Below are positions 4,508 to 44,700 of a stretch of DNA of 64,000 bases, one piece after another. The position numbers and the translations under genes are program-made. Below the pieces are notes generated by a model. The model was given only the letters and a program-made list of their open reading frames with translations, was not told the DNA's origin and did no database searches. Location: assembly GCA_015709675.1 (NCBI GenBank), contig CP054182.1, forward strand, positions 3,141,448 through 3,205,447. The letters run 5' to 3'. Positions within the stretch are counted from its first letter, which is position 1. Each line of letters begins with the position of its first letter. The stretch comes from Ignavibacteriales bacterium (GTDB lineage Bacteria > Bacteroidota > Ignavibacteria > Ignavibacteriales > Ignavibacteriaceae).

Positions 4508-5455
4508 ATGGTAGTAAGGTTTTGGGGGGTCAGAGGGTCCATACCTTCACCGCCAAAAAGCAGTGAATTACAAGAGAAAATACTCAGAATTCTGGAATTT
4601 TCGCAGGGTGCTGATTTATCAACATCCGAAAAAAGAAAGAAATTCCTGGATTCCATTGAGGAGCAATACACTACTTTTTTAGGAGGAAATACCCCTTGCG
4701 TCGAACTTCAGTCAGGAAGCACCCGGCTGATTTTTGATATGGGCTCAGGTCTGCGGGATCTGGGTCGTGAAATCATGCATACCATGGGCGGCCGTGATAT
4801 TGAACTGCATATGTTCGTCGGCCACACTCACTGGGATCATATTCAGGGGTTCCCTTTCTTTATTCCCGCTTATAGTCCAAAAACTACCATCAACTTCTAC
4901 CATCGCCACCCTGACCTCAAAGGACGTCTTGAAGGACAGCAGCAATTTCAGTACTTCCCTGTTTCGCTGGATATTATGTTATCCAAAAGGATTTATAATG
5001 AACTTACTGAAGGACAAATCCTTAAGATTAACGACCTGACCGTCAGAAATATTGAGTTAAATCATCCTGGGAAAGCTTTCGGATACCGGGTCGAAAAAGA
5101 TGGAAAATCATTTGTTTATGCCAGTGACAGTGAATACAGCAATCTCCCCTCAGAGCGCATTAAAAAATATATAGAGTTTTATCAGGGCACTGATGTCCTG
5201 ATTTTTGATGCTCCGTATTCTTTCAGTGAAGAGATCGAGAAGATTAACTGGGGACATTCATCAGCGATTATTGGAACAGATTTGGCTGTGGAAGCTAAAG
5301 TGAAGAAACTGGTACTGTTTCATCATGCTCCAGAAAATGACGATGAAGAGGTATACAGGCTGTTGAATACGGCACTCACCTACAAAAGCAGGAATTATCC
5401 GGATTCAGATTTAAGTATTGTTTTAGCAAGAGAAGGATCAGATATTAATATCTGA
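4508..5455 (+). CDS. Metallo-beta-lactamase-fold hydrolase
   Basis: Cytoplasmic metal-dependent hydrolase of 315 residues. It has the N-terminal GVRGSIP signature typical of the RNase Z/phosphodiesterase-like branch of the MBL fold. Metal ligands visible are H106, H108, D110 and H111 (HTHWDH), a later H186, bridging D207 (YASDSEY) and a C-terminal His in LFHHAP. An insert of about 40 residues (residues 17-58) between the first strand and GGNTPC enlarges the usual N-terminus. Substrate is unknown; relatives act as phosphodiesterases or in chemotaxis/c-di-NMP contexts, but no such partner gene is adjacent. It is divergent from the gene upstream and convergent with the barrel-gene cluster, which ends 14 nt away. 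Confidence 0.85.
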   Translation: MVVRFWGVRGSIPSPPKSSELQEKILRILEFSQGADLSTSEKRKKFLDSIEEQYTTFLGGNTPCVELQSGSTRLIFDMGSGLRDLGREIMHTMGGRDIELHMFVGHTHWDHIQGFPFFIPAYSPKTTINFYHRHPDLKGRLEGQQQFQYFPVSLDIMLSKRIYNELTEGQILKINDLTVRNIELNHPGKAFGYRVEKDGKSFVYASDSEYSNLPSERIKKYIEFYQGTDVLIFDAPYSFSEEIEKINWGHSSAIIGTDLAVEAKVKKLVLFHHAPENDDEEVYRLLNTALTYKSRNYPDSDLSIVLAREGSDINI

Positions 5456-5469: not shown

Positions 5470-6858
5470 TTAGTAGTTGATACGAATAACCGGGGAGAAT
5501 ACGAAGTAGCTGTCGTTCCTGTAATCAGGGAGAGAACCAGAAAATTGCAGAGGGGAAAATACCTTGAAATCAAATCCAATAGAATTAGTCACCATCACAA
5601 AAAACTTCAGCCCCAAAAATCCATTTGAGTCATTAAAGTTGTAATGAAACAGGGTTGAAATTTTATGCGAAATAATTGCTCCGTCCCCTTCAAGATGGGC
5701 TTCAGCACCAAGCATCCAGCGGTAATTACCGGATATATTGGTGGGAAGAGCAGTCAAAAGCGGCGCTCCGGGAACTGACAGAAAACGCTTCACATCGTAC
5801 AGTCCGAAACCGCCTCCTGCTTTCAGTTTTCCTGCAGCACCAAAATCCAGGAGTTCAGGATAGAGCGCAGTCAGAGAGAAATAATTTCTGTTACTGAAAA
5901 AATAGAGACTATCGGTGTTCTTAAAGTCTGATGGAGTATCCTCTGTTATTGCAAAAGCGCCTTCAATATCCAGTTCAATATCCTCGAGTTCAGGAGTAAT
6001 CATTCCGAGGGGTGAACCGATAAAATGCATATAGATATTTGTACCAGAATGGTTCAGGCGTCTTGCATTAAGAGGATTTGCATCTCCCATTGAAAACTCC
6101 TTTGCCGGAATTCCAAAACCAAGTTCAACAAGGTACGTTGTTTTTGGAACTGTATTCACTATATATTCGGAATATTTCAGTCTGACTCCGGAAAAATAGT
6201 CGGGATAATACCATCCGGGCATTGCAGGACGGTCCATTCCCCATTTACCGAACAAAGATACCAAATACTTATTACGCGCATTTGTTGTAAGATTCCATAT
6301 CATCATCTCCGGTTCCAGAAGATGCAGATAAATATCAAAATTATACTGATAATTGAAATCATAGAGGGTTTTTGTAATATCATTCAAAGCATAAAACTGC
6401 TTTTTCAGATCTTCATATAGCTCAAGGCCAAGAATTTCCCTGATGTAGACGAAGTCATATACCTCATCAAAGAAATAGTCAGAAGTATCAGACTCTCTGT
6501 TCGGGCTTTCAGTAAAGAATCTTAAAAGTTCGATTTCACCATCATAGTACCGTTTGCGGACATCTATAAAAACATCCCCTTCGTAGATATCATTGGACTT
6601 CTGACGAAGTTCCGCCAATGTTGGTTTCTTACCCCGTATCTTCAGTCCGTTTTTCACCACAAACTTATTATATATCTCACGGACATATACCGGATCGGTA
6701 ACAATCCATGTTTTTTTCAGATCGTTAAACGCAGTGGTGTTATACTCTAAGTTATCGTAAATCTTCTGAACTCTGATTATTTTTTGCTCAGTCTGAAAAT
6801 CCTGAGCTGAAACTAAAGATGCAAGAACCAGTAAAACAAATAAAACTTTAAATTTCAT
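5470..6858 (-). CDS. Predicted outer-membrane protein B2 of GldLM-like locus
   Basis: Unknown family; 462 residues with a Sec signal peptide (MKFKVLFVLLVLASLVSAQ). Residues ~20-180 form a soluble mixed domain with conserved stretches (YNTTAFNDLKK, VREIYNKFVV, DVRKRYYDGEIE). The remainder has alternating aromatic strands and ends FSPVIRINY, a terminal aromatic as recognised by outer-membrane insertion machinery. It is a clear paralogue of the 8410-9792 product (same motifs, same length, same C-terminus). Translation is probably coupled: its ATG lies 2 nt after the stop of the A2 gene and has no evident Shine-Dalgarno. Last gene of the cluster. Role inferred from context: outer-membrane part of a trans-envelope machine. 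Confidence 0.7.
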   Translation of the reverse strand: MKFKVLFVLLVLASLVSAQDFQTEQKIIRVQKIYDNLEYNTTAFNDLKKTWIVTDPVYVREIYNKFVVKNGLKIRGKKPTLAELRQKSNDIYEGDVFIDVRKRYYDGEIELLRFFTESPNRESDTSDYFFDEVYDFVYIREILGLELYEDLKKQFYALNDITKTLYDFNYQYNFDIYLHLLEPEMMIWNLTTNARNKYLVSLFGKWGMDRPAMPGWYYPDYFSGVRLKYSEYIVNTVPKTTYLVELGFGIPAKEFSMGDANPLNARRLNHSGTNIYMHFIGSPLGMITPELEDIELDIEGAFAITEDTPSDFKNTDSLYFFSNRNYFSLTALYPELLDFGAAGKLKAGGGFGLYDVKRFLSVPGAPLLTALPTNISGNYRWMLGAEAHLEGDGAIISHKISTLFHYNFNDSNGFLGLKFFVMVTNSIGFDFKVFSPLQFSGSLPDYRNDSYFVFSPVIRINY

Positions 6859-6860
6859 AG

Positions 6861-8369
6861 TTAAAACCCGTACCTGTATCTGATCTGAACCATTGAATTA
6901 CTTCCTTCAGTCTCCCATGGGTAGAGCGAACGGAACATCGGCGCACTCATAAAGTTTGTTTCAAGCCGGAAAGCACCAACCCCCTGTATATCGATGATTT
7001 TCATCCAGAAGAAAAGGTTCATGACTCCATCGTAGAACCTGACTCTGGCACTGAGGAATTCACTGTTGAGAGGAGCAAATGTTGTCTGCAGAGAGATAAC
7101 GGGCTGTGTTTTGTTAAAAATCATTGACTTTGATGTAACAGGAGTATAGTCAACCTTATAAATATCATAATTTGCAGCACCAATGTCCATCTTGAAACGG
7201 ACGGTCCTTTCCTCACTGCTGTTCCAGAAATAGGAGAATGTTGCTTCCCACTGATTAAAGGAGAAATAAGCAGAAGGAGTTGCAGCAGGACCAAAGGTCA
7301 CATAAGGACTTAAAGAAGTACCTGAACTGGTCGAAAGATAAAAATTAAAGAACGGGAAGCCGTAGAGTCTTGAAGTTGAAAGATCAACAACAAATCCTGG
7401 TCCTACGTTTATACTTGGCCGCTGACCAAAGATAAACGGAAGTGATGAAATAAGATCGGATGTATTAATTCTTGCTCTGCCAAGAAGTTTGGCATCAATC
7501 ACGAAATCATTTCTCAGATTGTTCAGATTGCCTTTAAGACTGAAAAGCGTTCTCATTCCGAAAGACATTCCCATCGTCTGATAAGGAAGCATATTAAGAA
7601 CTTTTGAACCCATGTCAATCTCAGCGCTAATAGTACCAAAACCAAGATTCAGTGTGTTATGGTAAAACGTAAGATGTGAGAAACTTGCATCAATCTGCAT
7701 ATCGCTGGCAGAAGTGGTTTCACCTGATCTTCTGCTCCTTCTCTGTGTTTGCTGATCTTCAGGATCGGCCGGATACCGGTGAGTGCTGTTAAGCCGCATA
7801 TGGCTTAAAAAATCACGGTTATCTATAAAGGAAATTCCTTTTGATTTGTTTCTGCCGTCATCAATTACCAGATTCAGCAGTGCAGAAGGGTCTTCAATTT
7901 TAACTGAATTCTTTACAATTGTATAAAGATATTCGTAGGTAGAGGGATTATAATCAAACAGATCCTGTATATCACCAAAAGTAAGAACGGTAGTGGTATC
8001 TATCTGAGGCCCCTGAGATGCATCGCCGAAGAAAGACTCCCCTGATGACTGTTTATCTTCAATCTCTCTCACATAAAGCAGAGTAATTGAATCAAGCTCA
8101 ATGGTTTCTTTCTTAAAGATGATCTGATATGTAACGCCGTCCTTCTTTCTGAAAGAGAAAGAAGGGCGGTCGTTTCTTCTGGGAATGTTTGAAAGCGGCT
8201 GAAGCTGTGCTTCTTCAGGAGTAAAGTTTACAGCAAACAGATCAAGATAGTTTTTGTCCTGAGACAGTTTTTTCTCAACCTTCAGATAAAGGTCATTAAT
8301 CGGCTGAGAAAAAACTGTGAGACTCAGAATTCCAAACAACAATAAGGTTTTATATCTGATAATAATCAT
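6861..8369 (-). CDS. Predicted outer-membrane protein A2 of GldLM-like locus
   Basis: Unknown family; 502 residues with signal peptide (MIIIRYKTLLLFGILSLTVFSQ). The N-terminal ~190 residues are a soluble domain containing SFFGDAS...VLTFGDIQDL. An Arg-rich linker (QRRSRRSG) follows, then about 270 residues of amphipathic beta strands ending QIRYRYGF, typical of an outer-membrane barrel. It is the paralogue of A1 (9813-11330): same length, same SFFGDAS and LTFGD motifs, same aromatic C-terminus. It is followed 2 nt later by B2, repeating the A-B order of the first pair. Function not known. Confidence 0.7.
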   Translation of the reverse strand: MIIIRYKTLLLFGILSLTVFSQPINDLYLKVEKKLSQDKNYLDLFAVNFTPEEAQLQPLSNIPRRNDRPSFSFRKKDGVTYQIIFKKETIELDSITLLYVREIEDKQSSGESFFGDASQGPQIDTTTVLTFGDIQDLFDYNPSTYEYLYTIVKNSVKIEDPSALLNLVIDDGRNKSKGISFIDNRDFLSHMRLNSTHRYPADPEDQQTQRRSRRSGETTSASDMQIDASFSHLTFYHNTLNLGFGTISAEIDMGSKVLNMLPYQTMGMSFGMRTLFSLKGNLNNLRNDFVIDAKLLGRARINTSDLISSLPFIFGQRPSINVGPGFVVDLSTSRLYGFPFFNFYLSTSSGTSLSPYVTFGPAATPSAYFSFNQWEATFSYFWNSSEERTVRFKMDIGAANYDIYKVDYTPVTSKSMIFNKTQPVISLQTTFAPLNSEFLSARVRFYDGVMNLFFWMKIIDIQGVGAFRLETNFMSAPMFRSLYPWETEGSNSMVQIRYRYGF

Positions 8370-8409
8370 CCTGCCCGTTCACTGTTGAAAAAAGATTCTT
8401 ATTTAGAAA

Positions 8410-9792
8410 TTAATAGTTGATTCTCAGGATCGGTGAGAATACTATATAAGCATCTTTTCTCCAGGTGGGGAAAGAACCTTTATCATAACCAAGTGCACTC
8501 ATGACACGGATATCAAAACCAAAGTTTCCGCTCAGCATGGTCTGTGACTTTATTCCTACAACAGCATAACCGCCTGTAGAATAACCGAGGGTTAAATGAA
8601 AACGATGCTGAATGAGACCGCCGGTTCTGGCAATACCGCCATCAACAAATAGCATGTGGTCAAGTTTTTCGATGATGCTTTTGTTTGACTCGAGGTCAGT
8701 GGTTTTGCTTGATCCAGGGGTACTTCTGAATTTATTTATATCCATGCTGGAAAGACCAACTGCAGCTTCAACATCTCCGAAGTCACCAAGATTATAGAGA
8801 TTCTTGAGGCGTCCTTCAAGAATGAAATAGGCTCTGTTGGTAAAGAAGTCTATCTGTCTGGTATTACCCAGATCTTTTGGGCTGAAGCTTGTCGCGGTAT
8901 ATTTTACCTCGTAGTTTACGGTAAAGTCTCCGATATCTTCGCCAAAGAGTTTGAGAGGATCACCTGAGATCTTGAAGTAAACTGCCTGACCTGAGACCAT
9001 AAGCGGAGTAACCGGAAGTTCACTGACAAAAGGAATTGTTGACGGGAAAGAAACACCAACGTTAACTCTGTAGGAGTATTTGTCAGGATTACTGGCGATA
9101 GCTTTATAATAAGTCAGTTCTGAACCGACGATGTACTCCATTGAAGTCCATCCCGGCAGGAATACCTGATCGGCACCCCACTTACCAAAGAATCCGAGTG
9201 TATATTTATTACGGAAACTTGAGGTAGTAGTCCAGTACATTACTCTTGGTTCAAGAACGTTCATATAAAGATCAAAGTAGTAACCGTTTTTGGTATCGTA
9301 CTCTTCTTTAGTGAGGTTACTGAAGAAGTAGCTCTGGTCTTTCATTTTCAGGTATACTTTTTCACCAAGGATGTCTCTGAGCAGGAACGGATCTCTTACC
9401 GGATCAAAAAGATATTTTGGATTCTCTTTATCGATCTCCTCTTCAGGAACGAATGCAAAATACTCGATCTCATCATCATAGTATCTTTTACGCATATCAA
9501 CAAGGATTTTACCGTCGTAAATTTCCTGTGATCTCTGCTTAATGATATCAAGTGATACTCTCTGGTCATTGATTCTTAGTTCGTCGCGAACTACAAATCT
9601 GTTATAGATTTCTCTGACGAAGAAAGGATCTGTGAGTACCCATTTTTTCTTCAGGTCATCAAAGGCGAGAGTATTATACTCTAAGCTCTCGTAGATTGTC
9701 TTAAGCTGCCCTGCAACTGAAGTATCAGCATTCTGAGCAAAAGATTTACCCGCGAGTAAAATCAGTAATACAAATAAAAATTTCTTATTCAT
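8410..9792 (-). CDS. Predicted outer-membrane protein B1 of GldLM-like locus
   Basis: Unknown family; 460 residues, signal peptide MNKKFLFVLLILLAGKSFAQ. The soluble N-terminal part (~20-180) shares YNTLAFDDLKK, LTDPFFVREIYNRF and DMRKRYYDDEIE with B2. The C-terminal part is strand-rich and ends FSPILRINY. The FFGKWG motif near residue 205 is also shared (LFGKWG in B2). The gene is 20 nt downstream of A1 and 40 nt upstream of A2. I compared it with GldN/PorN, the usual downstream neighbour of GldLM, and saw no convincing motif match. Confidence 0.7.
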   Translation of the reverse strand: MNKKFLFVLLILLAGKSFAQNADTSVAGQLKTIYESLEYNTLAFDDLKKKWVLTDPFFVREIYNRFVVRDELRINDQRVSLDIIKQRSQEIYDGKILVDMRKRYYDDEIEYFAFVPEEEIDKENPKYLFDPVRDPFLLRDILGEKVYLKMKDQSYFFSNLTKEEYDTKNGYYFDLYMNVLEPRVMYWTTTSSFRNKYTLGFFGKWGADQVFLPGWTSMEYIVGSELTYYKAIASNPDKYSYRVNVGVSFPSTIPFVSELPVTPLMVSGQAVYFKISGDPLKLFGEDIGDFTVNYEVKYTATSFSPKDLGNTRQIDFFTNRAYFILEGRLKNLYNLGDFGDVEAAVGLSSMDINKFRSTPGSSKTTDLESNKSIIEKLDHMLFVDGGIARTGGLIQHRFHLTLGYSTGGYAVVGIKSQTMLSGNFGFDIRVMSALGYDKGSFPTWRKDAYIVFSPILRINY

Positions 9793-9812
9793 GGTTTTTG
9801 CTCTCTTCTAAA

Positions 9813-11330
9813 TTATAAACCGAATCTGTAACGTAACTGCATAGATCCGCCGCCTGCTGTTTCATAGGGACGTTTCTTTCTTGTGACAGGAGCAGTGACC
9901 AACTGTGTTTCAAGTCTGAACTGATGACCGCCGTCAAGCTCAAACAAAGCAAGCCATGCAGTGAATTTGATGACACCATCATACAGCTTTGTTTTTGATG
10001 CAAAAAGTTCAGTTCCTTCAGGTGCGAAGTTCAGATGGAACTGGATCATCGGAGCAATATTTGCGTAAATTTCTTTTGACGAGATCTTGGTGTTTGATCT
10101 CTTGGCATATTCAGCTTCCTGAACATCATGATAACCAACACCCACATCCATGCGGAATCTGGTAGTATAGTTATCTGATTCGTTCCAGTAGAATGACATT
10201 GACCACTCCATTGAATTTCCGCCGAAGTATGCAACGTCACGGGTAGCAGATTTTGAGAATCTGAGAGCTGGTCCCTGATAATCAATTACGCCGGCCATAA
10301 TATAAAGATTCCAGAACGGAAGCCCGAATGGACGAGTGAGTGAAAGGTCAAGTCCTGCACCATTAGACATGTTAAGCCTAGGGCTGGCTGCCTGATTCCA
10401 GACAAGATAATCAGTAAATCCTGTAAGATCAACCGCAGCACGTGCAAGAAGTCTTGCGTCAACCATTACTGCTTTTTCTATTTCTTCTTTCTTTTCTGAA
10501 AGACTGATCAGCGTTCTGAATCCGCCTGTAACAGACTGACCTCTGAAAGGAAGCACATTGAAGACTTTATCTTCAAATCCGAGTTCTACTGAAGCGCCGC
10601 CCAGTGAAAAGTCCATTACTTCGTGTGAAAATGTTATAAAAGACGGTGTTGCATCAATTTTGAAAGGTGAAGCAACTTCAACTACTTCCGGACCTCTTCT
10701 GCTGGTCTTCTGAACAACTTTTGGTTTCGGATACCAGTGAGGATGATTTGCTCTCATATAATTGAGAAAGTCAGTATTGTCACGGGAAGAAAGACCTAAA
10801 CTGGTCTGAATCTCCTGATCAGGATTTATTCTGAGGAGTGATGGAGGATCTGAATCAGGATTCTCCTTAATAAACTTATCTACAACCTTGTAAAACTTGA
10901 AGTAGATATTGCTATAATTATTTTTCAGATTGAACATATCACCAAAAGTGAGGACTCTGGTCGTGTCAAAGGACGGGCCAGAAGCATCACCGAAGAAACT
11001 AGAGTCTCCTCCGGCGAGATTGGTAATCTGATCAACGTAGAGAACAATCATTGAATCCACTCCGATTGCATCCTTGAGGAATACAATCCTGTAAATAATG
11101 TTGTCCTTTGCCTGAAGAGAGACAGGCTCTCTTTCATTGATTCGGGGCAGATTGGTGAAATCAGGATCTATCCTGCCATCAGAGGGATACTCAACGTAAT
11201 GAAGGTTGAGATATCTCTTATCCCGGCGGAGTTTAAGATCAATCTTCTTTATGATTTCATCAAGGTCCTGTGCAACCATGACCATAGAAATCATGAAGAA
11301 GAATAAGGTTAAAAATAATTTTCTAAACAT
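9813..11330 (-). CDS. Predicted outer-membrane protein A1 of GldLM-like locus
   Basis: Unknown family; 505 residues with a Sec signal (MFRKLFLTLFFFMISMVMVAQ). N-terminal soluble domain with SFFGDASGPSFDTTRVLTFG; a basic linker (KTSRRGPE) near residue 210; then a barrel-like region ending QLRYRFGL. It is the paralogue of A2. It lies 39 nt downstream of the Ig-like secreted protein gene and 20 nt upstream of B1, in the same direction as the GldL/GldM-like genes. The paired duplication implies that A and B products act together, perhaps as hetero-oligomeric barrels; that is inference. Confidence 0.7.
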   Translation of the reverse strand: MFRKLFLTLFFFMISMVMVAQDLDEIIKKIDLKLRRDKRYLNLHYVEYPSDGRIDPDFTNLPRINEREPVSLQAKDNIIYRIVFLKDAIGVDSMIVLYVDQITNLAGGDSSFFGDASGPSFDTTRVLTFGDMFNLKNNYSNIYFKFYKVVDKFIKENPDSDPPSLLRINPDQEIQTSLGLSSRDNTDFLNYMRANHPHWYPKPKVVQKTSRRGPEVVEVASPFKIDATPSFITFSHEVMDFSLGGASVELGFEDKVFNVLPFRGQSVTGGFRTLISLSEKKEEIEKAVMVDARLLARAAVDLTGFTDYLVWNQAASPRLNMSNGAGLDLSLTRPFGLPFWNLYIMAGVIDYQGPALRFSKSATRDVAYFGGNSMEWSMSFYWNESDNYTTRFRMDVGVGYHDVQEAEYAKRSNTKISSKEIYANIAPMIQFHLNFAPEGTELFASKTKLYDGVIKFTAWLALFELDGGHQFRLETQLVTAPVTRKKRPYETAGGGSMQLRYRFGL

Positions 11331-11369
11331 AAAAACATTCCATCTGTAAAGAAATAAGTAATTAAAAAC

Positions 11370-12443
11370 CTATTTAATAACTGTAGCGTAAAAGGTCTCT
11401 TTAACCTGATCACCAAACTGCGTTCTGAACTGAACGGTTATTTTAATATCTGCATCGCTTCCGGTTGACATAGCATTCATGAAGTCCTGGTTGACATTCA
11501 GATCAATATACACAAACACACCCTGCTTACGCTGGGTTGCTCCAGTAATAAACTGTTCTGGTTCAGAGGTAACTCTGAGGTTTCTCACTTCAGGCGTAAC
11601 CGCAACTATTCCTCCCGGTTTCATACCCATATAGGTAAAGAGGAATGATTTACTGAACTGATTGTCTATACTGATATACCATGGATCTTCCCCTGCCTTC
11701 GGTTCGGCACTTGACCATCCGTTAAACTTCTGGACAGCCGGCTTGTCAATAGAAAAAGTCCACTCAGAATTTTCAACCGCATCCTTAAAGGGATTTTTAT
11801 AAGTGAACTGTTTACCCTGATAAAAGCCCTTAATGGTGAGTGATTTACCAACCGAATTGATGTCGCTTAAAATCTTATCAAGTCTTACTACTGAACCGCG
11901 GCCGCTGTCAACGATTGCGCTGCCGTCCAAAACCTGATAAGAATACAAGTTAAAATCGGTGTATTCGGATGTGGCAAAACTCATCACATCATTTTCGGAA
12001 AAGAAATAGTTGGGTCTGAGAGTAATCGGAGCCGCAAGAGTCGGTTCTGAAACATTCACAGCATAGTACCGGTCCGCTTTAAATGCTCCTGTTTCACCCT
12101 TTCCGCTCACGGTGATTTTTACTAAATAGTTACCCGGCTGATCAATAAAATCATGCAGAACAAGCCAGACAGTTGTTCCTCTTCCGCCGGCAACATATTT
12201 TGAAAAATCTTCTTTCCTTGGACGCTGCGTAAAGTTATTAATATCCCTAACTTTCTGACCATCAGCAGTCAGCAGTTCAGCGGTAAAATCAAAACTCAGA
12301 AGGTTAGCAGCTACAATAGCGCCAACTTGCGGGACATTAAAATTCTGCAGTTTAACAACATTTATCGTGTCACTGATAGTCTGGGGAAACAGATTGATAC
12401 TAAGCAGCATTACTGCCACAAAGCTTAACCTTTTTAAAAACAT
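11370..12443 (-). CDS. Secreted multi-Ig-like protein, possible detached GldM periplasmic part
   Basis: 357 residues with signal peptide (MFLKRLSFVAVMLLSINLFPQ) and no other membrane segment. The mature part is all-beta by eye and can be divided into about three Ig-like modules of ~100 residues (for example GRGTTVWLVLHDFIDQPGNYLVKITV, and the closing ITVQFRTQFGDQVKETFYATVIK). In T9SS, GldM/PorM carries such modules (D2-D4) beyond its single helix. Here the upstream GldM-like protein is only 205 residues, so this protein may supply the missing periplasmic shaft in trans. A generic chaperone-like adaptor is the alternative. A strong hairpin (12481-12510) separates the two genes. Confidence 0.6.
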   Translation of the reverse strand: MFLKRLSFVAVMLLSINLFPQTISDTINVVKLQNFNVPQVGAIVAANLLSFDFTAELLTADGQKVRDINNFTQRPRKEDFSKYVAGGRGTTVWLVLHDFIDQPGNYLVKITVSGKGETGAFKADRYYAVNVSEPTLAAPITLRPNYFFSENDVMSFATSEYTDFNLYSYQVLDGSAIVDSGRGSVVRLDKILSDINSVGKSLTIKGFYQGKQFTYKNPFKDAVENSEWTFSIDKPAVQKFNGWSSAEPKAGEDPWYISIDNQFSKSFLFTYMGMKPGGIVAVTPEVRNLRVTSEPEQFITGATQRKQGVFVYIDLNVNQDFMNAMSTGSDADIKITVQFRTQFGDQVKETFYATVIK

Positions 12444-12480
12444 CGTATCCTCGGTTTAGATTATTTCAAAAATAATAAAA

Positions 12481-12510
12481 ATCAGGCAGGTGCGATGTGA
12501 CCTGCCTGAT
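12481..12510 (-). terminator. Intercistronic hairpin, likely partial terminator
   Basis: An 11-nt stem (ATCAGGCAGGT / ACCTGCCTGAT) encloses an 8-nt loop. On the minus strand it is followed by TTTTTATTATTTTTG. It lies between the short GldM-like gene and the Ig-like gene of the same operon. It looks like a Rho-independent terminator with an imperfect U tract. If it is leaky it would set a higher level for the two inner-membrane genes than for the downstream envelope genes. Confidence 0.65.
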
Positions 12511-12528
12511 ATTTTGTAGAACTATTTG

Positions 12529-13146
12529 CTAGTCAACAAGCGCGCCCGCAGCCTGCTTTACACCACCCTGCCGTTTGGCGCGGATAGTGAATTCTTCCTG
12601 ATTTGATACTCCTTCTTTCAGATCGCCAATCAGCTCCATGAGCTGACCTTTCAATCTTTCAGTAAGATAGTCAGGAACACTGCGCTGGACGCGGCACTGG
12701 GCAACAAATTTGAAGTCACCTTCGTTGGTGATTTTTGCAATAAATTTGCCAGTACCACTTTCATTCAGAACGTAGTATGCTTTATTGGTATCTGCGTTAG
12801 CTGAGGAAAGTTCTCCCGGCCAGCCTGAGGGAACGGGTGAACCCTTAACCTTAACGGTGAATTCCACATTTTTCTTCTCATCTTCTGAGACGAGCCCGAT
12901 AGCGGAGAGAACTACAGTAGCTTCCTTGCTGTCGGCGCTTCCAACGTTGAAATCAAGACTCTTGGGAACTGCTGCCAGAATAAGCGGAGCCTTATAGGAC
13001 TCGGCAATACTTACAAGCATTTTGTCCCTGATCTTGTGTTCTTCCTCTTCTAATTCGTCTCTTTCGGTGCTGATAATCAACAACTCTACTATAAGTACCA
13101 CATAGAGTACGAAGTAGAGCATTTTTCCGCTGCCACCTTTTGCCAT
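12529..13146 (-). CDS. Short GldM/PorM-like single-helix motor protein
   Basis: 205 residues. A short basic N-terminus precedes one membrane helix at residues 9-27 (MLYFVLYVVLIVELLIIS) with an internal E21, followed by R29 and an acidic stretch (ERDELEEEEHKIRDK). A periplasmic beta domain spans about 55-150 and a helical tail ~157-180. The topology (N-in, one helix, periplasmic domain) and its position 35 nt after the GldL-like gene match GldM/PorM. But GldM is usually around 500 residues, so about 300 residues are missing, and the gene is not simply truncated since it ends in its own stop and hairpin. Start ATG has a good GGAG. The orthology is a topological inference. Confidence 0.6.
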   Translation of the reverse strand: MAKGGSGKMLYFVLYVVLIVELLIISTERDELEEEEHKIRDKMLVSIAESYKAPLILAAVPKSLDFNVGSADSKEATVVLSAIGLVSEDEKKNVEFTVKVKGSPVPSGWPGELSSANADTNKAYYVLNESGTGKFIAKITNEGDFKFVAQCRVQRSVPDYLTERLKGQLMELIGDLKEGVSNQEEFTIRAKRQGGVKQAAGALVD

Positions 13147-13181
13147 TTTAAACTCCTTTTTTAAAGATATTTATTTAATTA

Positions 13182-13730
13182 TTAACCCTTAAATACCTGT
13201 CTCAATTCGGAGATGGACTTATAGAATTCGTTTTTCTGGGCAGTCAGTTTTTTGTTGATATTTTCGAGATTAGCGAGCTGGTCGTTAATAACTTTCATTT
13301 CAGCATCAACCACGCCGCGAAGATCACTGATGGTCTGCTTAGCTTTTGCAACTTCAGCATCCGGTACAAGAGCTGCCGCAGCAGGCTTCTTATCGTCCGC
13401 ATGATGAGCATCTCCGAAAGAATCTTCAGGGGTAAAGAAAGTTACCACTGCCAGGATCATCAGGAGTGTAAATTCGAGAAAGAGAGCGATCATCACCCAG
13501 GTTGAAGAAACCTTCTGAGTCGCATGATCAAGAAGGAACGGTGGAACAATGGGAATTTTGTAGGCAGCTGTTCCTAATCCTTTCAGACCGACGATGATAA
13601 TGAGTAACGCTGCACCCATGTACACCAAACCCTGAATGTTGTTGGCATAGTTAGGAATGAAGGTATACACCATGTAACGACCGAAAGCTGTTTTAGGACC
13701 GCTAGCAGGTTTCTGATTCTGAGTTGCCAC
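13182..13730 (-). CDS. GldL/PorL-like inner-membrane motor protein
   Basis: 182 residues, GTG start with GGAG 8 nt upstream. Two membrane helices: about 33-52 (QGLVYMGAALLIIIVGLKGLG) and 77-99 (TWVMIALFLEFTLLMILAVV), then a cytoplasmic Ala/Pro/acidic linker and a coiled coil at about 125-180 (DLRGVVDAEMKVINDQLANLENI...). The GldL family has the same plan: two helices with one buried Glu in the second and a cytoplasmic helical tail. The Glu here is E86. GldL pairs with GldM as a proton-driven motor for type IX secretion or gliding; the next gene encodes a GldM-like protein. Identity to true GldL is low by eye, so I assign the superfamily rather than the gene. Confidence 0.65.
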   Translation of the reverse strand: MATQNQKPASGPKTAFGRYMVYTFIPNYANNIQGLVYMGAALLIIIVGLKGLGTAAYKIPIVPPFLLDHATQKVSSTWVMIALFLEFTLLMILAVVTFFTPEDSFGDAHHADDKKPAAAALVPDAEVAKAKQTISDLRGVVDAEMKVINDQLANLENINKKLTAQKNEFYKSISELRQVFKG

Positions 13731-13981: not shown

Positions 13982-15583
13982 TCACGATTCCTTAACCTCT
14001 TTTTCTTCAAACCAGCCAAAAAAAGCTTTCAGCGCGTGACGGCGCTCATCTGATACGTAATTAAAATTAACCCCGCGGGGGGTTATCTCCCAAAATTCTT
14101 CCTCTTTGGTGTTCTCAATCAACTCCTGGATTTTCATGATTCTGCCGTAGGGCTCAAGTTTCATATCCTCAAATATGACCCGCGCCAGGTCTTCTTCCCC
14201 GTTAAGCAGGTAAAAACCGGCAAGTTTTGCCTGAGCCACGCGGACCCCTATCAAGGAAGCTTCCTTGGAAGAACCCTTTTCTTTTGATTCTTCTATGGGC
14301 TCATCAACTGTAAGGAACAATTTTAACAGAGCAGCCTGATTTGGCACCTGCTTTTCGTAGGCCAGTTCCATCAGAACACACAAATCATGAGCAGCAGTCT
14401 CAAGAATAAATAACACCTGAAACTTGTTCGCTTCCTGACCATAGTATTTAAAGTAAAAGAAAATGGTTTCCACCATTTTGGGGTTCACATCCATCAGTTC
14501 TTCAGCCAGCACACGGTAATGCTCCAGTGTGTTAAATGCCGAGCGCGGATCCCTCTCCCTAATGGCAATACGCAGGTAGGAGTTAAAATACTGAAATGTG
14601 CAGTGAAGTGCCCCGTTATCGCTGGCTTTCATCGCTCCCGAGCCGATCAGTTCGGAGTTCAGCAGGACTCCGGAGGCCACATCTCTCAGAGTTACCCTTG
14701 AATTGGAGTAAAGCATTTCAAACAGCCGGAATACTTTTCTTTCCAGGAATATTTTTTTCCGTTCGATAACAGATAGCACGAACCTGGAATAGCTCGAAAA
14801 ATCAGGATCATAATACGCCAGACCGCTGAACTTGAACCAGCTGTTTGGAAGGGACTGCTTTAGGGGAAGATAATCAACCGTGAGAGACTTTAACGTCGCA
14901 ACGCAAAGCAGCACTGTAGCCCTGTCCCCCTGTATTACGGAATTAAGGGCGATATCACCGATAAAATTAATATTCTCAGCAATAGAGTCTTTTTTCTCTG
15001 AGACTAAAGAAGAAGGAGGATTTCCTCCGGCGGCCTCTGACTTTTTTATAATGTCCTGCAAATCTTTATCAATCTTGTCCTGCACATAGGTAATAAAGTA
15101 ATTCGGACGGAGGAAATTTGAAACATAATTAAAATGAGGTATAACAATCATCAGACAGCTTAATATCATCAGGAGGCTGAAGGTGATTGAGAAGTACGGA
15201 ACATTTTCACCTGTTATCGTATTGCTTACCGTAACAGTATAGATTGCCGTTATAACATACAGCATGATAACTATAATGTTAATCTTATTCTGAATAAACA
15301 GTTCCATTATCTTTGAGGAGTATTTATTCGCGGCCAGCTGTACGATAATGGCAAGTACGGTAATTTCAATACCCATGATGGCTGAAACCAGTTCACCGAG
15401 CCCCCCTATGGTATTGGTGAGATTTCCGGCGTCCTGGGTGTAAAGTACCGCAAATACATTCGCGTTATAATGGTACAGCAGCATATCAACTACCCTTGTA
15501 ATGACAAGAAGAAGTACACTCACTGAGACTATAGCCGATGAGGGTATAACCCAGGGCTTTAGCTTTTCATAATCGACGCGCAA
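13982..15583 (-). CDS. DUF2254-like predicted membrane protein
   Basis: About 533 residues. Several N-terminal membrane segments (VIPSSAIVSVSVLLLVITRVV; ELVSAIMGIEITVLAIIVQLA; INIIVIMLYVITAIYTVTV; SITFSLLMILSCLMIVIPHF) are followed by a ~350-residue cytoplasmic helical region. The ITVLAIIVQLAANKYSSKIM stretch followed by a second hydrophobic helix resembles DUF2254 membrane proteins; no biochemical role is established for that family. I chose the TTG at 15583, which gives LRVDYEKLKPWVIPS at the first helix. The frame is open to a further TTG at 15628, but a promoter-like TATATTTG box lies between them. It stands alone between two other transcription units. Confidence 0.6.
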   Translation of the reverse strand: MRVDYEKLKPWVIPSSAIVSVSVLLLVITRVVDMLLYHYNANVFAVLYTQDAGNLTNTIGGLGELVSAIMGIEITVLAIIVQLAANKYSSKIMELFIQNKINIIVIMLYVITAIYTVTVSNTITGENVPYFSITFSLLMILSCLMIVIPHFNYVSNFLRPNYFITYVQDKIDKDLQDIIKKSEAAGGNPPSSLVSEKKDSIAENINFIGDIALNSVIQGDRATVLLCVATLKSLTVDYLPLKQSLPNSWFKFSGLAYYDPDFSSYSRFVLSVIERKKIFLERKVFRLFEMLYSNSRVTLRDVASGVLLNSELIGSGAMKASDNGALHCTFQYFNSYLRIAIRERDPRSAFNTLEHYRVLAEELMDVNPKMVETIFFYFKYYGQEANKFQVLFILETAAHDLCVLMELAYEKQVPNQAALLKLFLTVDEPIEESKEKGSSKEASLIGVRVAQAKLAGFYLLNGEEDLARVIFEDMKLEPYGRIMKIQELIENTKEEEFWEITPRGVNFNYVSDERRHALKAFFGWFEEKEVKES

Positions 15584-15614
15584 AAATTTTCCGGAATGAT
15601 TTATTAGAATTATG

Positions 15615-15622
15615 CAAATATA
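15615..15622 (-). promoter_or_regulatory. Bacteroidota-type -7 box (TATATTTG)
   Basis: Exact match on the minus strand to the TAnnTTTG element of Bacteroidota primary-sigma promoters, placed about 32-39 nt before the TTG start chosen at 15583. I do not see a matching TTG -33 element at the usual distance, so this is tentative. Confidence 0.35.
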
Positions 15623-15711
15623 GAGCAATTCCCCTTATTTGATGCTTAATTTTTGCTGTCAGAGACTGTTTTTCTTTCCACCCCCCAGCAGCAGAACAGG
15701 GATACTACCCC

Positions 15712-15775: not shown

Positions 15776-18700
15776 TTACTTAACCAAAATCATTTTTTTG
15801 GTGTCGGTAAACGATGACTCACCAGCTGAAACGCGGATGGTGTATATATATGTTCCGCTGGTTAACTGGCTTGCATCAAAACTGACCTGATGATATCCAG
15901 CTTCTTTAACTTCATTAACCAGAGTGGCAACTCTTTCACCAAGGGCTGAGTAAATATCAAGCACGACATTTCCTCTGACCGGCAGAGAGTAACTGATGCT
16001 GGTTGCAGGGTTAAACGGATTAGGATAATTCTGATTCAGTGAGAATACATCAGGACGGCTGATTTCCACTCTGATTTCATCATAAGTTTTGCTGGTTCCG
16101 TTGTAGTCTTCCTGTATCAGGCGATAAAAATAAACACCTGTTTCCAGTCCTGATTCGGTAAATTCATAACGGCTGATTTCGGTAGTGTTGCCTCTGCCGT
16201 CAATGTAACCGGCCTGTTTCCAGGCTGAGTTTTCATTTCTTCTTTCAACGCGGAAACCTTTGTTGTTTACTTCTGTTGCAGTCACCCATTGCAGTAGTGC
16301 AGTGTTGCCATTAACAGAACCGGTAAATGAGGTTAATTCAACCGGTACTTCACCGTCAATATAAAGACTGACCGGTATAGTATGAGTCGGCTTTAACGGA
16401 TCATTGGTAGAGAAAACAACATCCATGGTATACATACCGGCAGGATAGTCTTCCGATCTGAACTCCATAACAACCGATGCTGATGCACCATTATTCAGGG
16501 TACCTCCGGTATGCTGGGTGGTCATCCATTCAGGATCTGCAGCAAATTTGATCGCATGGCTATTCTTTGCATAGGCAGCATTATAAGCAGTCTGCAATCC
16601 AACTGAACCATTGCCATTTTCGATACCGATGGTGGCCGAGTTCATGGTGGATGAGGTCATTGTCTTATAGTAAATCATTATTCTGCCGTTAGAATAAAGC
16701 ACAACCTGGAAAGTTAATGATGAACCGGTTGTGGAATATCTTGGCCAATTATTGTACTGGATGGTGAATTTACCGCCATCTGCCTTATAATATACTTCAC
16801 CTCCGTTTGTGCCGTCAAGATCGTCCCAGAACGGGGCAATATATTCGTTCGGTGCTGCAGCATTAGGAATAGCAGCATTGGTAAATATGTTAGAAGTAGG
16901 AGCGTTAAACAGAATTACGCCATTCGAAGAAGCGTAAACGGTGTTCTTTACGTTTCCATAGAATTTGAATGGGAACGGAAGAGTAATTGGACCTGAATGT
17001 CCCTCATCTTTAGCACCAAAAGTACCAGTCGGAGTCCAGGTAGTAACATTTGTTCCTGTGGCTGCGATATCATTCCACTCATATGCAGGACCATTCGGTT
17101 CATCACTGTCAATCCACTTATATCCGAAAGCATCTGGTCCGCCCTGTCCTTCAATTGAAAGTCCAGGTGTGTACTGAGAGAGTTCATCACCTTTCACAGG
17201 ATATTTTCCTTCAAGCACCTGAGTCTGATGAGGTACTAATGTCAGTTTAACGTTACCCGGGAATGTGCTGTTCTGCAAAGATACCTGGTAGTTCAGTGTT
17301 GAAGCATGCGCGGAGGTATTTGACACAACGAGACTGTCAACATATACCATATTTGCGCTTAACTGCTTGTGCATTGAGTCAGGAGTAACGGAAAGTGCAG
17401 GAGCGCCAAGGGTTGTGCCTGAAGCGCTGTTTGAAAGCAAGGACCAGTTACCCCAAAGATCACGTGCACGGATAGCAAAATGATAAGTTGTAGCAGGCTG
17501 AAGATTGCCAACCATAACCATATCAGTTGATCCTGAAGCGCCAGGCGCTCCGTTGAAGGGAACATCCTGAGCATTATTAAAAGCAACAGTATCTGTTATA
17601 GGTGCATTGGACATCTTAATTGCATATCCTACTACACCGCCATTTGAAGTATCATCCGGAACCGTCCAGGTGAGTTTCAGGCTGTTTGACTGCGGCTCAG
17701 CTGAGGCAAGATTAGTAATCTGCGTTGGTGCAACGGTATCAGGGGTTCCTAATGTAAGGAATGCAGCATAGAGATCAATCAGACCCATTCCGTAGGTGTT
17801 ATCTTCACCTGCTGTACCTAGATCCTTTGCGGTATTATAAAGAGCCATTTTAATCTGGGCACCGGTAAGTGTTGGAGCATACTGCTTTAAGAGCGCAATA
17901 GCACCCACCACATGGGGAGCTGCCATGGAGGTACCGCTGAGTGTTGAGTATCCGCCGCCCGGATAGGATGAACGGACATTATTTCCGGGAGCTGAGACTT
18001 CCGGCTTTATCAGAAATGAGCCTGTTCCACCGCAAACTGAAGGTCCGCGGCTCGAAAAACTGGCGATCGGATTATTGTTACCGCCGAGATACTGAACGCC
18101 GTCAATTGCTCCGATTGCGAAAACATTCACCTCAGTAGTACTGATATTCTTTGGTTTGGTGATGGTGGAAGCACTTGGTCCGCTGTTACCTGCTGAGAAA
18201 ACTACCGCGATACCTGAAGCCTCAACTGCATCAAGTGTGGTTTTATATATACCGGTACATTCGTTTGAAACATTGGGATCATACCAGCTGTTGCCGATTG
18301 CATCCGGCATATCAGTAATAGTAGAAGGGTTGCCGTCAGGGTTCATTGCCCACTGGAAAGCGGCAACAGAATTTGAGGTGTGGGGTGAGGAACAGATTGT
18401 TTTAGCGGCAATCCACTGAGCATCAATAGCAACACCAACGGTGTCAGCAGTGGTTGTGGAGCGGCCTGCCATGGTTCCGATGGTATGGGTTCCGTGACCG
18501 TCACAATCGTTAGGGGTGGTTGAGCCTCCGCCCGGATCAAACCATGCCTGGCTGGCAGGAACAGTATTGCCTCTCCACTTGTGATTGATAGCCGGATGTG
18601 TAGGATCCACACCGGTATCTATACCCATGACTAAACGGCCCTGACCGGTAATACCCATTGCCCAAAGTTTATCTGCATTGATAATCTTTACGCCGGGTTC

Positions 18701-19174
18701 GACGGATTCGGTTGATTCAACATTGTGTTCAACTACAGTCGGTTTGTCAAGTTTCAGTTCTGCATCCAGATCCATCTGGGCAACTTCCATACTGTTCATC
18801 AGTTCATAGAAGACACTGGATTTGGCTTCAATTAAGATCATATTGGCAATCCAGAAGGACTTGTAACCAAACACTTCCCTCTGAGCATAACGCTCTTCAA
18901 AATAGTTGATGAGGTTTTGCTGAGAACTCTGAGCTTTATTCTGAAGTGTGGTGATTACCGTGAATGCTCTGTGTTCAAGAGTAGCATTTTCAGCATACAA
19001 TTGCTGATCAAGCGCTTCGATATCCACCTGATCACGGAGGTACACGAATCCTTTTATATAATCTGTCGGGGATGAATTTTGTAAAGCCCGCATCAGACGG
19101 GTGCTTACTTCAACCTGTGCAAACAGTGACGAGGTCAGAAGAAAGACAAAAAAAAGTAGGAAGTTTTTTTTCAA
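15776..19174 (-). CDS. T9SS-exported subtilisin-like (S8) protease
   Basis: Extracellular or surface serine protease of 1132 residues, TTG start with GGAG 5 nt upstream. Order: signal peptide (1-19); inhibitor-type propeptide (~20-150), resembling bacillopeptidase F; S8 catalytic domain with D186 (VMGIDTGVD), H227 (DGHGTH), oxyanion N295 (GNSWYD) and S416 (SGTSMAAPH); fibronectin-III module (~482-590); a jelly-roll-like region (~690-850); a PVELTSF module; and a T9SS type A sorting domain in the last ~85 residues (QNYPNPFNPATSISYSLP). All catalytic residues are present. Exported by Sec and then T9SS; the sorting domain is normally removed on surface attachment. Monocistronic, with its own terminator. 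Confidence 0.94.
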   Translation of the reverse strand: MKKNFLLFFVFLLTSSLFAQVEVSTRLMRALQNSSPTDYIKGFVYLRDQVDIEALDQQLYAENATLEHRAFTVITTLQNKAQSSQQNLINYFEERYAQREVFGYKSFWIANMILIEAKSSVFYELMNSMEVAQMDLDAELKLDKPTVVEHNVESTESVEPGVKIINADKLWAMGITGQGRLVMGIDTGVDPTHPAINHKWRGNTVPASQAWFDPGGGSTTPNDCDGHGTHTIGTMAGRSTTTADTVGVAIDAQWIAAKTICSSPHTSNSVAAFQWAMNPDGNPSTITDMPDAIGNSWYDPNVSNECTGIYKTTLDAVEASGIAVVFSAGNSGPSASTITKPKNISTTEVNVFAIGAIDGVQYLGGNNNPIASFSSRGPSVCGGTGSFLIKPEVSAPGNNVRSSYPGGGYSTLSGTSMAAPHVVGAIALLKQYAPTLTGAQIKMALYNTAKDLGTAGEDNTYGMGLIDLYAAFLTLGTPDTVAPTQITNLASAEPQSNSLKLTWTVPDDTSNGGVVGYAIKMSNAPITDTVAFNNAQDVPFNGAPGASGSTDMVMVGNLQPATTYHFAIRARDLWGNWSLLSNSASGTTLGAPALSVTPDSMHKQLSANMVYVDSLVVSNTSAHASTLNYQVSLQNSTFPGNVKLTLVPHQTQVLEGKYPVKGDELSQYTPGLSIEGQGGPDAFGYKWIDSDEPNGPAYEWNDIAATGTNVTTWTPTGTFGAKDEGHSGPITLPFPFKFYGNVKNTVYASSNGVILFNAPTSNIFTNAAIPNAAAPNEYIAPFWDDLDGTNGGEVYYKADGGKFTIQYNNWPRYSTTGSSLTFQVVLYSNGRIMIYYKTMTSSTMNSATIGIENGNGSVGLQTAYNAAYAKNSHAIKFAADPEWMTTQHTGGTLNNGASASVVMEFRSEDYPAGMYTMDVVFSTNDPLKPTHTIPVSLYIDGEVPVELTSFTGSVNGNTALLQWVTATEVNNKGFRVERRNENSAWKQAGYIDGRGNTTEISRYEFTESGLETGVYFYRLIQEDYNGTSKTYDEIRVEISRPDVFSLNQNYPNPFNPATSISYSLPVRGNVVLDIYSALGERVATLVNEVKEAGYHQVSFDASQLTSGTYIYTIRVSAGESSFTDTKKMILVK

Positions 19175-38204: not shown

Positions 38205-39455
38205 TTATTTTCCTAAAACCTTAAATTCAATTCTTCTGTTAAGGAATCTTCCCATTGAAGTCTGATTATCTGCAATTGGTTTTTCAGCTCCGAAGCCGGA
38301 GGTAGAAAGACGGTTAGCGGCAATTCCTTTTGAAACCAAATATTGTTTAACAAGGTCAGCTCTGTCACGGGAGAGTTTACGGTTAACCTCACTGCTTCCG
38401 ATATTGTCCGTATGCCCCTGTATCTCTACTCTCAGGCTTGGGTTTGCCATCAGTATCTGGAATGCGTTGAGCAGAATAGGATAAGATTCCGGGGTAAACC
38501 GGGTTGAATTAAATTCAAAATTAATTCCCATCAGAACCCAGTTCGGCGCGTAACCGTCAGTTGCATTTTTATCATTAGTGGGCATACCGTCAAAGTTGAT
38601 GCTTGGTTTATTCCGCTTAACGATATCTTCAATACGGTTGTAATCTATATTAGCCGGCTCTTTGACGTATCGTTTAATGATATCTTCAATGCGGTTATAG
38701 TCAACCAGACCATTGGTAACAGTTGAGTTTGGTTCTGTGTCTTTATTATCCGGATTGGTATTTTTATTATCAGGGCTAGGACTGGAAATACTGTTTATCG
38801 TTAGAACTCCGTCATATATATCGCAATAACGGTATTTTTTTCCTTCCGTTATTTTATATATAAGTCCTGCCTTAAAGGTCATATACGTGTCAAGTGAACC
38901 GCCAAGCAGCCCGCCCACAGTACCGCCTGCTCCGTCATACCCGTCAGAAGCAACGGTATGATATGCAATTTCGGTATTGTAAGAAAATCCTTCACCGAGT
39001 ATATCAACCAGGTACTCATCAATTATTCCCCAGTTTACACCTAAAATCAGGTTCGCCTGATAATCAAGATAATTTCCATCCTTCACACTTTGCCCCTTTT
39101 CTAAGGAAAAATACAATCCTGAGACCCCGATGCCAAAATACGGATCAAGAATATCGCATGGAGCCATGTGAAATATGTAATCCAGATTTAAGGAGAAGGT
39201 ATTATTTTTGACAGGAGAATTTAACGAACGGATCATAGCGTAGTGAGCCCCCCATCTGAAATCTGAATGTTCAGAAAAATTATATTGTGCGCTTGCGAAA
39301 AGCCCAAAATTAATTTCAGTTCCAGTAACCTCACTACCTGTGAAGCGCGGAATTAACGTTCCGAACGTTGTCGTCCACTGATTTGCTTTCACTTGAGCAA
39401 ACGAAATTTGTTGTATCAGTAGTAAAAATGCAAAAACCGATAAGATTCTTCTCAT
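38205..39455 (-). CDS. OmpA-family outer-membrane protein with C-terminal peptidoglycan-binding domain
   Basis: About 416 residues from the ATG at 39455, chosen for its clean signal peptide (MRRILSVFAFLLLIQQISFAQ); the frame opens at 39497. The N-terminal ~190 residues are an eight-strand-type barrel (SAQYNFSEHSDFRWGAHYAM, YCDIYDGVLTIN). A linker contains PDNKNTNPDNKDTEPN and two copies of DYNRIEDI(I/V)KR. The C-terminal OmpA domain (~300-416) has NPSLRVEIQGHTDNIGS, NRKLSRDRADLVKQYL and NRRIEFKVLGK, which bind peptidoglycan diaminopimelate. It tethers the outer membrane to the wall. Monocistronic with its own terminator. Confidence 0.9.
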   Translation of the reverse strand: MRRILSVFAFLLLIQQISFAQVKANQWTTTFGTLIPRFTGSEVTGTEINFGLFASAQYNFSEHSDFRWGAHYAMIRSLNSPVKNNTFSLNLDYIFHMAPCDILDPYFGIGVSGLYFSLEKGQSVKDGNYLDYQANLILGVNWGIIDEYLVDILGEGFSYNTEIAYHTVASDGYDGAGGTVGGLLGGSLDTYMTFKAGLIYKITEGKKYRYCDIYDGVLTINSISSPSPDNKNTNPDNKDTEPNSTVTNGLVDYNRIEDIIKRYVKEPANIDYNRIEDIVKRNKPSINFDGMPTNDKNATDGYAPNWVLMGINFEFNSTRFTPESYPILLNAFQILMANPSLRVEIQGHTDNIGSSEVNRKLSRDRADLVKQYLVSKGIAANRLSTSGFGAEKPIADNQTSMGRFLNRRIEFKVLGK

Positions 39456-39617
39456 GACAGAACCCATGAATAAATTATTGAATTTAGGCAGACTCATTTA
39501 ACAATCTGATTTAGGTAAATTAGTCTAACTGTAACTACTAAAATAGTTTATATTTATAAAAAAACAAATTTTTTTAATTTTTGAGACCTGAACCCCCTAA
39601 AATAAGCGATTTTTACC

Positions 39618-41720: not shown

Positions 41721-44700
41721 ATGAAAATTCTTGCGCTCCTCTTCATAATGACATTAACCATATTTCCGCAGAGCACGAATCAGGAATTCCGTTCCACCTG
41801 GGTTATTACCTGGGAGTACATCAGTTCCTCAAGCAGTGTGGAAACGAATAAAGCACGGATCAGAAGAATACTTGATGATCATAAAGCCGCAAATATGACC
41901 TCCGTACTCTGGCAGGTCAGGCAGGCTGGCACGGCGTATTATAATTCTTCCTATGAGCCATGGGGCTCCTATGCCGGCGGCACATACCCTGGCTTTGACC
42001 CTCTTGCCTATGCTATTGAAGAGGCCCACAAGCGTGGTCTTGAACTGCATGCCTGGTTCAATGTCTTTGCATCAGGAAGCACCGCTCCGGGTGCACCGGC
42101 ACAGCAGCATCCGGAATGGATTTGCCGTGACCAGAGCGGGAATCCAATGACCTCAAACATTGCGCTCTCACCAGGACTCCCCGCTGTCAGAGATTATCTG
42201 ACACGGGTGGGCATGGAAATCGTCAGGAATTATGACATTGACGGATTTCATTATGATTATGTACGGTGGAATGAATATAGCAGTACTGCACCAAGACCCG
42301 AACCAAAAACAGAAGATGAAAAGCGTCTTGCCCTGCTTGACGGAATGATTACTGATGATGATGTTCGTTCGCTCGAAGAAAATCAGGCGGGCAGATATCT
42401 ATATGATGTAGAGCATCCTTACTCAGCAGGAATTCCGGCAGGATATACCTCATGGGAGGAATTCTGGAGAGGCTCTGTAACCAAATTTGTGCAGCAAATG
42501 AATGACTCCATTAAGGCGGTTAAGCCATGGATTCGGATTTCCGCTGCAGCCATCGGTAAATATAACTGGTCAGGATGGCAGGGCTATGGCATTGTGTATC
42601 AGGATGCTGCTCTCTGGTACAATATGGGCTATATTGACCAGCTCACCCCGATGCATTATCACTGGACTACTGCAGCCGGATTCACCGGTATGCTTAACGG
42701 GCAGTGTCCTCAGTGCTGGGGCCAGTTCATCCAGCCGGGTACAACGGCCGGCAGATTATTTACGGTCGGGCCCGGATCATATATACTGGCTGAAAATAAC
42801 GTCTGGCAGAATCATCCCGATATCATTAACGCAACACGGAATGTTCCTTTTGTTGATGGTTTTCAGTTCTTCAGTTATGGCTCCTGGCGGGATAAAAACT
42901 ATTTTACTGAAGCAGGCGCAACCTTTTTTAAGCGCAGAACCAAAATTCGCGATACCAGAACAGTAAAAGATACTGTGCCGGAAGCGCCGTCCTTAAGCAT
43001 TACGAAAATTGACTCGCTGAACTATCGGCTGAAAGTCACGCCGCACGCTTCTTCTCCCCAGAAGATGTGGTATATACTTTACCGGAATGCAGATACCTCG
43101 ATTAACACCGATCAGGCAGAAATTGTGGACATCTCCTTTGCCAGCGATACTTTTACTGTTACGCAGTCTTTCAGCGGGCTGCAGGATTTTAACGGAATAT
43201 ATCATTACGGAGTGACGGCTGCCGACAGATACTGGAATGAATCTCCTCTTTCAAATCTGGCACTTACTGATTCGGTACCTTCCTTCGCGCCGGTGGTGCT
43301 TTCTTCAGTACCAGCAATGAACGATACCGTCGGAGTATCTTCGCAGATAAAGCTGAATTTTTCAAAAAGCATGAACCGGAACAGCGTTATTACTGCCATA
43401 GAGACTGATCCGCAGATTACGTTTACCTCTGCTCTCTGGACAGCAGACAGCAAAAGTCTTACTCTGGTTAAACAGGGTAATCTGAGTTTTGCCACCAATT
43501 ACCGTTTTTCAATTCTTCCTTCAGCCACTGACATTAATGGTAAAAATATTGATGGTGACGCAAATGGTGTCCCTGGTGATACATTCAATCTGTATTTCAG
43601 AACCGAGGATATAGATTTGCATGGGCCGGCACTCTTATCTGTGTATCCCGATACATCCGTAACCGGATCTATTGACGCAGAAGATGTTCTTTCTCTTCTG
43701 TTTGATGAACTGGTCGCACCTGCAACCGTAACCCATGCCAATATCCAACTCACCAGGAATGGAACCGCGGTTACAAAGGATATGCGCCTGACAACAGAAG
43801 ATGGAAAATCCCGGCTCTCATTAAAACCGCAGCAGCGCTTTACTATCAGCTCAGATTATGAACTGAAGATTACATCAGGTGTAACTGACCTTGGCGGTAA
43901 TGGAGTCTCACCTGAAATTGTTATTCCTTTCTCGGTTAATAATATGCAGTATTCCGCTTCTCTGATTATTGACCCCTACAGTGGTGACGGATTATGGTGG
44001 AATCCTCAGCAGAGCGGCTCAACTATTGGAATTGTTGACAGCGGAACCGGTTTTGATTATTCAACGGAGATCTTCCTGCCTGCAACCTCTCCGCAGCAGT
44101 CCGGTATGCTCCGCTACCAGTGGAATCCTTCCGCGGGAACAAAGCTGCTGAGAAATTACCTTTCCGGCGGGCCACCGCGTGATATCACTTTTGACACATC
44201 GTATACATTACAGATGTATATATACGGTGACGGTGGAGGCAGCAGATTCCGCTTTGCTCTTGATGAAGGGAACGGTGGTACTTCCTGGCCGAATCATGAA
44301 GTATCCGTCTGGTTTAAGATTAACTGGCGCGGATGGAAACTGGTGGAGTGGCAGCTTAACGACCCTTCTAAGGTCGGAGCATGGCTGGGTAACGGTCAGC
44401 TTGACCTTCCTCTCTACCGGATTGACAGCTTCCAGATGACTGATGATGCGGGTGCTGAACCTGCCGGCAGATTGTATCTTGATAATATGCGAATTGTCAA
44501 AAAGACAGAAGTAATTGTTACAGATGTCGCTTCAGAAGGAATTACCCCTTCTGTGTTTAACGTCAGGCAGAATTATCCGAATCCGTTTAATCCGGCAACA
44601 ACTATTACATTTTCTCTGCCTTCATCATCTTTTGTAACGGTTGAGGTATTTAATTCACTTGGAGAACGTTCTGCGGTTCTTTTCGAAGCAGAATCACTTG

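Follow-up and report, generated by a model that had tools for sequence, protein, structure and literature searches.

The seven-gene locus described here most likely encodes a divergent motor of the GldLM family with a split GldM. We put at about 0.58 the probability that it is an accessory GldLM-like motor dedicated to energising outer-membrane proteins of its own, and not the universal motor of the type IX translocon. The locus lies in the window, i.e., the whole analysed stretch of 64,000 nucleotides, as seven minus-strand ORFs in a row between positions 13730 and 5470, with intergenic gaps of 3-86 bp, exactly where an operon-like same-strand run had been predicted. The order is L, M, Ig, A1, B1, A2, B2, and the genes of the locus and its upstream neighbour are as follows:

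13982..15628, minus strand: DUF2254 membrane protein (PF10011, E 3.1e-16), upstream neighbour of L
13182..13730, minus strand: L, 182 aa, GTG start, inner-membrane protein with two transmembrane (TM) helices, in the GldL position of the putative motor
12529..13146, minus strand: M, 205 aa, single TM helix containing Glu21, then a periplasmic E-R-D and a small domain; read as the N-terminal half of a GldM-like protein
11370..12443, minus strand: Ig, 357 aa, secreted, three Ig-like domains; read as the C-terminal portion of a GldM-like shaft that is split
9813..11330, minus strand: A1, 505 aa, predicted outer-membrane protein with a signal peptide and C-terminal RYRFGL
8410..9792, minus strand: B1, 460 aa, modelled outer-membrane beta-barrel with a periplasmic N-terminal domain and C-terminal RINY
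6861..8369, minus strand: A2, 502 aa, second copy of A, in its own clade
5470..6858, minus strand: B2, 462 aa, second copy of B, in its own clade

Scans of all seven proteins with Pfam, NCBIfam and PADLOC matched nothing meaningful, and PDB sequence searches with five family alignments returned coiled-coil or chance matches only. The downstream neighbour (window 4508-5455) has a metallo-beta-lactamase fold and is convergent with the seven-gene run. The DUF2254 gene stands upstream in 21 of 32 related loci and is probably dispensable to the module.

The arrangement is conserved. By tblastn, M is present in 15 of 41 related genomes, with the same gene order in the flanks. The L core, searched against 84,980 species genomes, yielded 48 loci, 32 of which are of this type and come from Ignavibacteriales and Melioribacteraceae records. 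The original prediction had proposed a synteny survey in Ignavibacteriota; L-M-Ig-A-B is collinear in 30/32 loci from Ignavibacteria, the two exceptions being one at a contig end (L160) and one without A-B (L183). Because the same order recurs in 30 of the 32, the gene run is not a chance arrangement. Among 159 genomes of the class, B occurs in 13, and 12 of these also have L; the 13th contains a B-A-Ig run that ends at a contig edge. L-M-Ig-A-B is a strictly linked module. We consider it real, conserved and previously undescribed, and there is a fair chance that it is a machine in its own right; no description of this locus or of a type IX secretion system (T9SS) motor of Ignavibacteria was found in the literature searched, which took in few subscription journals.

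The protein L consists of two hydrophobic helices and a coiled-coil-like cytoplasmic tail. The buried Glu that had been predicted for its second helix in accordance with the GldL plan is Glu86 (TM2; codon 13473-13475), which is invariant in 13/13 close homologues, as are G39-A40 and G51-L52-G53, and the helix-2 Glu is still invariant in an alignment of 21 sequences across several locus types. Residue 50 (window 13581-13583), in the GLRGLG motif of helix 1, is Lys here and a nearly invariant Arg in the close homologues. Two N-terminal TM helices, a conserved helix-2 Glu and a cytoplasmic tail make up the plan of GldL, Glu falls on Glu in register when L is aligned to canonical GldL, and we infer that the two are homologous. 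The motor of Flavobacterium cannot work without E49 in helix 2 of GldL, a strictly conserved residue (PMC8986121), and GldLM is driven by protons and has a 5:2 stoichiometry (PMC9389320). L was not recognised by the GldL models TIGR03513 or Pfam GldL_N. Profile-profile comparison gave P 0.0005 for the full profile and P 0.002-0.005 where column shuffles reached the score in 27 of 250 and 10 of 150 trials. Direct homology on sequence alone was dropped, as the column-shuffle null attains the core score in 7-11% of trials.

The single-helix protein of the GldM plan was predicted correctly, for M has one N-terminal helix that carries Glu21, is ended by the invariant E28-R29-D30 and is followed by a small domain. 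Glu21 (window 13084-13086), inside the helix, has no counterpart in canonical GldM; among loci of this type its conservation exceeds 90%. The secreted Ig-like protein was likewise confirmed: it has a signal peptide, which ends in ...Q as do those of A and B, and its structure model contains three beta domains (pLDDT 90.9) and matches tandem-Ig proteins in Foldseek, where it is placed with generic Ig arrays and not with GldM. A direct comparison of the alpha-type Ig protein with GldM gave no match.

What did not hold is the reading of the Ig-like protein as separate from the GldM-plan protein. In the sister locus types delta and beta, M and Ig are a single protein of ~500 aa. The delta-type M aligns both with M of the window system (E 4e-10) and with Ig (E 4e-10), M matches the N-terminal part of the fused M proteins (E 3.9e-18), and the concatenated M+Ig and the fused delta-type M align collinearly for 385 columns (E 6.5e-16); this collinear alignment makes M and Ig the two halves of a single protein. 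The pooled fused M family in turn matches canonical GldM, represented by a profile of 19 Bacteroidia-type sequences and one divergent GldM, with E 9.8e-7 and a probability of 91% in profile-profile comparison, and the match covers GldM residues 239-414, the middle periplasmic domains 2-3. Local column shuffles reached this score in 0/60 trials, and the controls PorU2, A, B, GldN and GldK gave nothing in the same comparison; a PDB search with the fused M family returned no GldM match. At the level of sequence, homology of the periplasmic part of M+Ig to GldM, linked through the fused relatives, is supported. The layout of GldM as a single chain with one TM helix and a four-domain rod is absent, being split over two genes here, and M appears, as far as its sequence tells, to be devoid of the helical first domain of GldM.

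The predicted assignment to a GldLM-like motor is partly borne out, in that the fused relatives of M+Ig match GldM and L keeps the plan and the Glu, whereas the match of L itself to GldL is not significant. The plan of a ring protein with a single-TM partner is shared by other 5:2 motor families, i.e., ExbBD/TolQR/MotAB or the Zorya-type ZorAB, and the acidic residue in the helix of alpha- and delta-type M resembles that of MotB and ExbD. However, no such models in Pfam, NCBIfam or PADLOC were matched, and L has two helices, not three or four; membership of one of these families is largely refuted and we give it hardly any weight.

The four proteins with signal peptides and aromatic C-termini have the predicted features, but they are not four unrelated barrels; they are a duplicated A-B pair. 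The aromatic C-termini are family-wide, RYRYGF-like in A and FSPIxRINY in B. The structure model of B (pLDDT 81.6) comprises a signal peptide, an alpha/beta periplasmic N-terminal domain and a barrel of ~12-14 strands, and its Foldseek matches are outer-membrane barrels, the best in the PDB being Wzi, AlgE, OmpG and porins, all weak. In the barrel half, the profiles of A and B are weakly similar (P 2e-4), so the prediction of an outer-membrane barrel is based on the model and Foldseek for B, and on the C-terminal signature and the weak similarity to B for A. Neither protein shows a sequence relation to GldN or GldK. The candidacy of A or B as GldN was ruled out, as profile comparison found no similarity. 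A1/A2 and B1/B2 form two clades each (support 1.0, zero misplaced copies), and single-copy loci take the same side in the A and B trees where both were scored. Because copies 1 and 2 form such cleanly separate clades, the A-B pair was duplicated once, anciently, and was then kept as pairs.

L-M could be a static inner-membrane anchor from which the rod of M and Ig spans the periplasm and positions pairs of outer-membrane porins, which would agree with the resemblance of A and B to ordinary porin-type barrels by fold and with a homology of L to GldL that is unproven. Nevertheless, an anchor with two helices would pay a price for keeping an invariant Glu buried in one of them, and the GldM matched by the relatives of M has a motor as its partner, which makes a static role improbable.

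The organism uses type IX secretion, as the original prediction held, because its genome contains SprA, PorU with an adjoining PorV-like gene, and numerous regions matched by the sortase model in its sorting-domain part. Four of the six sorting domains claimed for the window were confirmed, in ORFs 15776-19174, 41721-44816, 44821-47046 and 53876-55435. The canonical PorU is located at genome positions 2620780-2624760, and two giant PorU2-like proteins of 1809 and 1909 aa at 1479245-1484674 and 2984663-2990392; the neighbourhoods of SprA, PorU and both PorU2-like genes contain no motor genes. An OmpA-like peptidoglycan-binding protein in the window (38205-39497) has the T9SS PorE model among its matches, via the OmpA domain only.

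The statement that gldK and gldN are not recognisable in the operon proved correct in model and profile searches. The suggested check for a second, canonical gldKLMN in the genome came out negative: the GldL and GldM models matched nothing, no gld operon was recognisable, and no second L-family gene was found, L being the single one. The GldN model also matched nothing in this genome, a weak absence as the model rang in no control, including the positive control, a divergent gldKLMN locus in another genome (G141), in which the L, M and K models did find their targets. The sole GldK-model match was below the cut-off and lay among the infB-nusA-truB genes. No class member in the phylum sample scored above the curated GldL cut-off, and the GldM model matched none of the 15 class genomes to which it was applied, yet SprA is nearly universal in the class, being present in 158/159 genomes.

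One alternative is that L, M and Ig are the T9SS motor of the lineage, replacing GldL and GldM and energising SprA, with A-B in place of the GldK/GldN ring and PorP. A genome with SprA, PorU-PorV and sorting-domain matches, without a recognised GldL or GldM and with a single L-family gene, is what such a substitution would leave, and in other families a relative of L adjoins a gene for a PorU2-like sortase. Against this, L-family genes occur in only 69 of the 159 class genomes as opposed to 158 for SprA, three genomes of the same family that are 98-100% complete (G161, G176 and G020) have SprA and no L-family match, and there is no T9SS gene inside the locus, so we regard this role as unlikely. 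The locus always co-occurs with SprA, while SprA mostly occurs without the locus, which is patchy even among close relatives. Because of this patchiness against a near-universal SprA, the accessory role is favoured, and of the two options of the original prediction, a divergent T9SS core or a separate machine, the latter gains without the matter being settled. As a counterpoint, the lack of any alternative T9SS motor found in the genome of the window leaves room for a role in T9SS. On the simplest view, the locus is an accessory machine and this family has a type IX motor that is yet to be recognised.

The sister loci vary in the partners of L. The beta type (L126, L127 and L129) combines L and a fused M of 430-470 aa with two other barrel proteins; these outer-membrane-like proteins are strongly similar to each other (E 2e-41) and weakly similar to A. 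M has 535 aa in the delta type (L123 and L125) and 512-543 aa in the gamma type (L116, L119, L134 and L135). The gamma-type L directly adjoins an LptF/LptG-like gene in two genomes (L119:6124-7991, L135:4156-7601). Two further loci, L118 and L120, encode an L-like protein without any M beside a giant secreted protein; in both, this GldL-like protein has ~440 aa and is encoded directly upstream of the giant one (L118:2785-10000, L120:5203-12000). The giant protein of L118 matches the PorU2/PorU sortase models (E 4e-70), a hint that some members of the L family may be connected with the T9SS. We tentatively propose, at somewhat less than even odds, that motors of the GldLM type gave rise to several envelope machines during a radiation in Ignavibacteria and Kapabacteria, the outer-membrane partners being particular to each machine, and that the locus studied here is a T9SS-independent machine with a detachable shaft, paired barrels and no KN ring.

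For the accessory motor that we favour, we infer a proton drive, a 5:2 assembly, physical contact between M, Ig and A/B, and the direction and cargo of the work. By analogy with GldLM, proton flow past Glu86 of L would change or rotate the M dimer, and Glu21 of M could possibly provide the motor with a second proton-binding residue. M would hand the movement to the Ig rod, which would act on the periplasmic domains of one or two pairs of A and B, and the barrels might be opened, rotated or pulled by the rod. The object moved could be a surface protein, a polymer or the cell itself. To our knowledge, the only roles described for GldLM are to power type IX secretion and gliding, with the KN ring as its transmission. 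If our reading is true, the split shaft and the dedicated barrel pair mean that this engine is a modular one, open to coupling with other tasks at the outer membrane, and the number of cell-envelope machines driven by motors of this sort may well exceed those described so far.

The locus resembles GldLM/PorLM in its adjacent genes for a two-TM protein with a helix-2 Glu and for a partner that has one TM helix and a long rod in the periplasm, and in the match of the fused M relatives to GldM domains 2-3. It differs in the division of GldM between M and Ig, in the Glu within the helix of M and the apparent beta domain where GldM has its N-terminal helical one, and in the two families of outer-membrane barrels that follow the motor genes, with no GldK or GldN beside them. 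The operon thereby also departs from the T9SS core of KLMN and SprA, as gldK and gldN do not accompany L and M. As with the PorKN ring and PorP/SprF, periplasmic and outer-membrane partners are encoded beside the motor genes; however, A and B are unrelated in sequence to GldN and GldK and match no curated family, and they end at the barrel, whereas SprF is reported to bear a periplasmic cysteine tail (PMC12635249). ExbBD-TonB and TolQR-Pal share with the proposed machine the principle of an inner-membrane motor working on outer-membrane proteins, but they do not match it in sequence, and the machine proposed here has a dedicated barrel pair within its operon and an Ig-domain rod in place of TonB or TolA.
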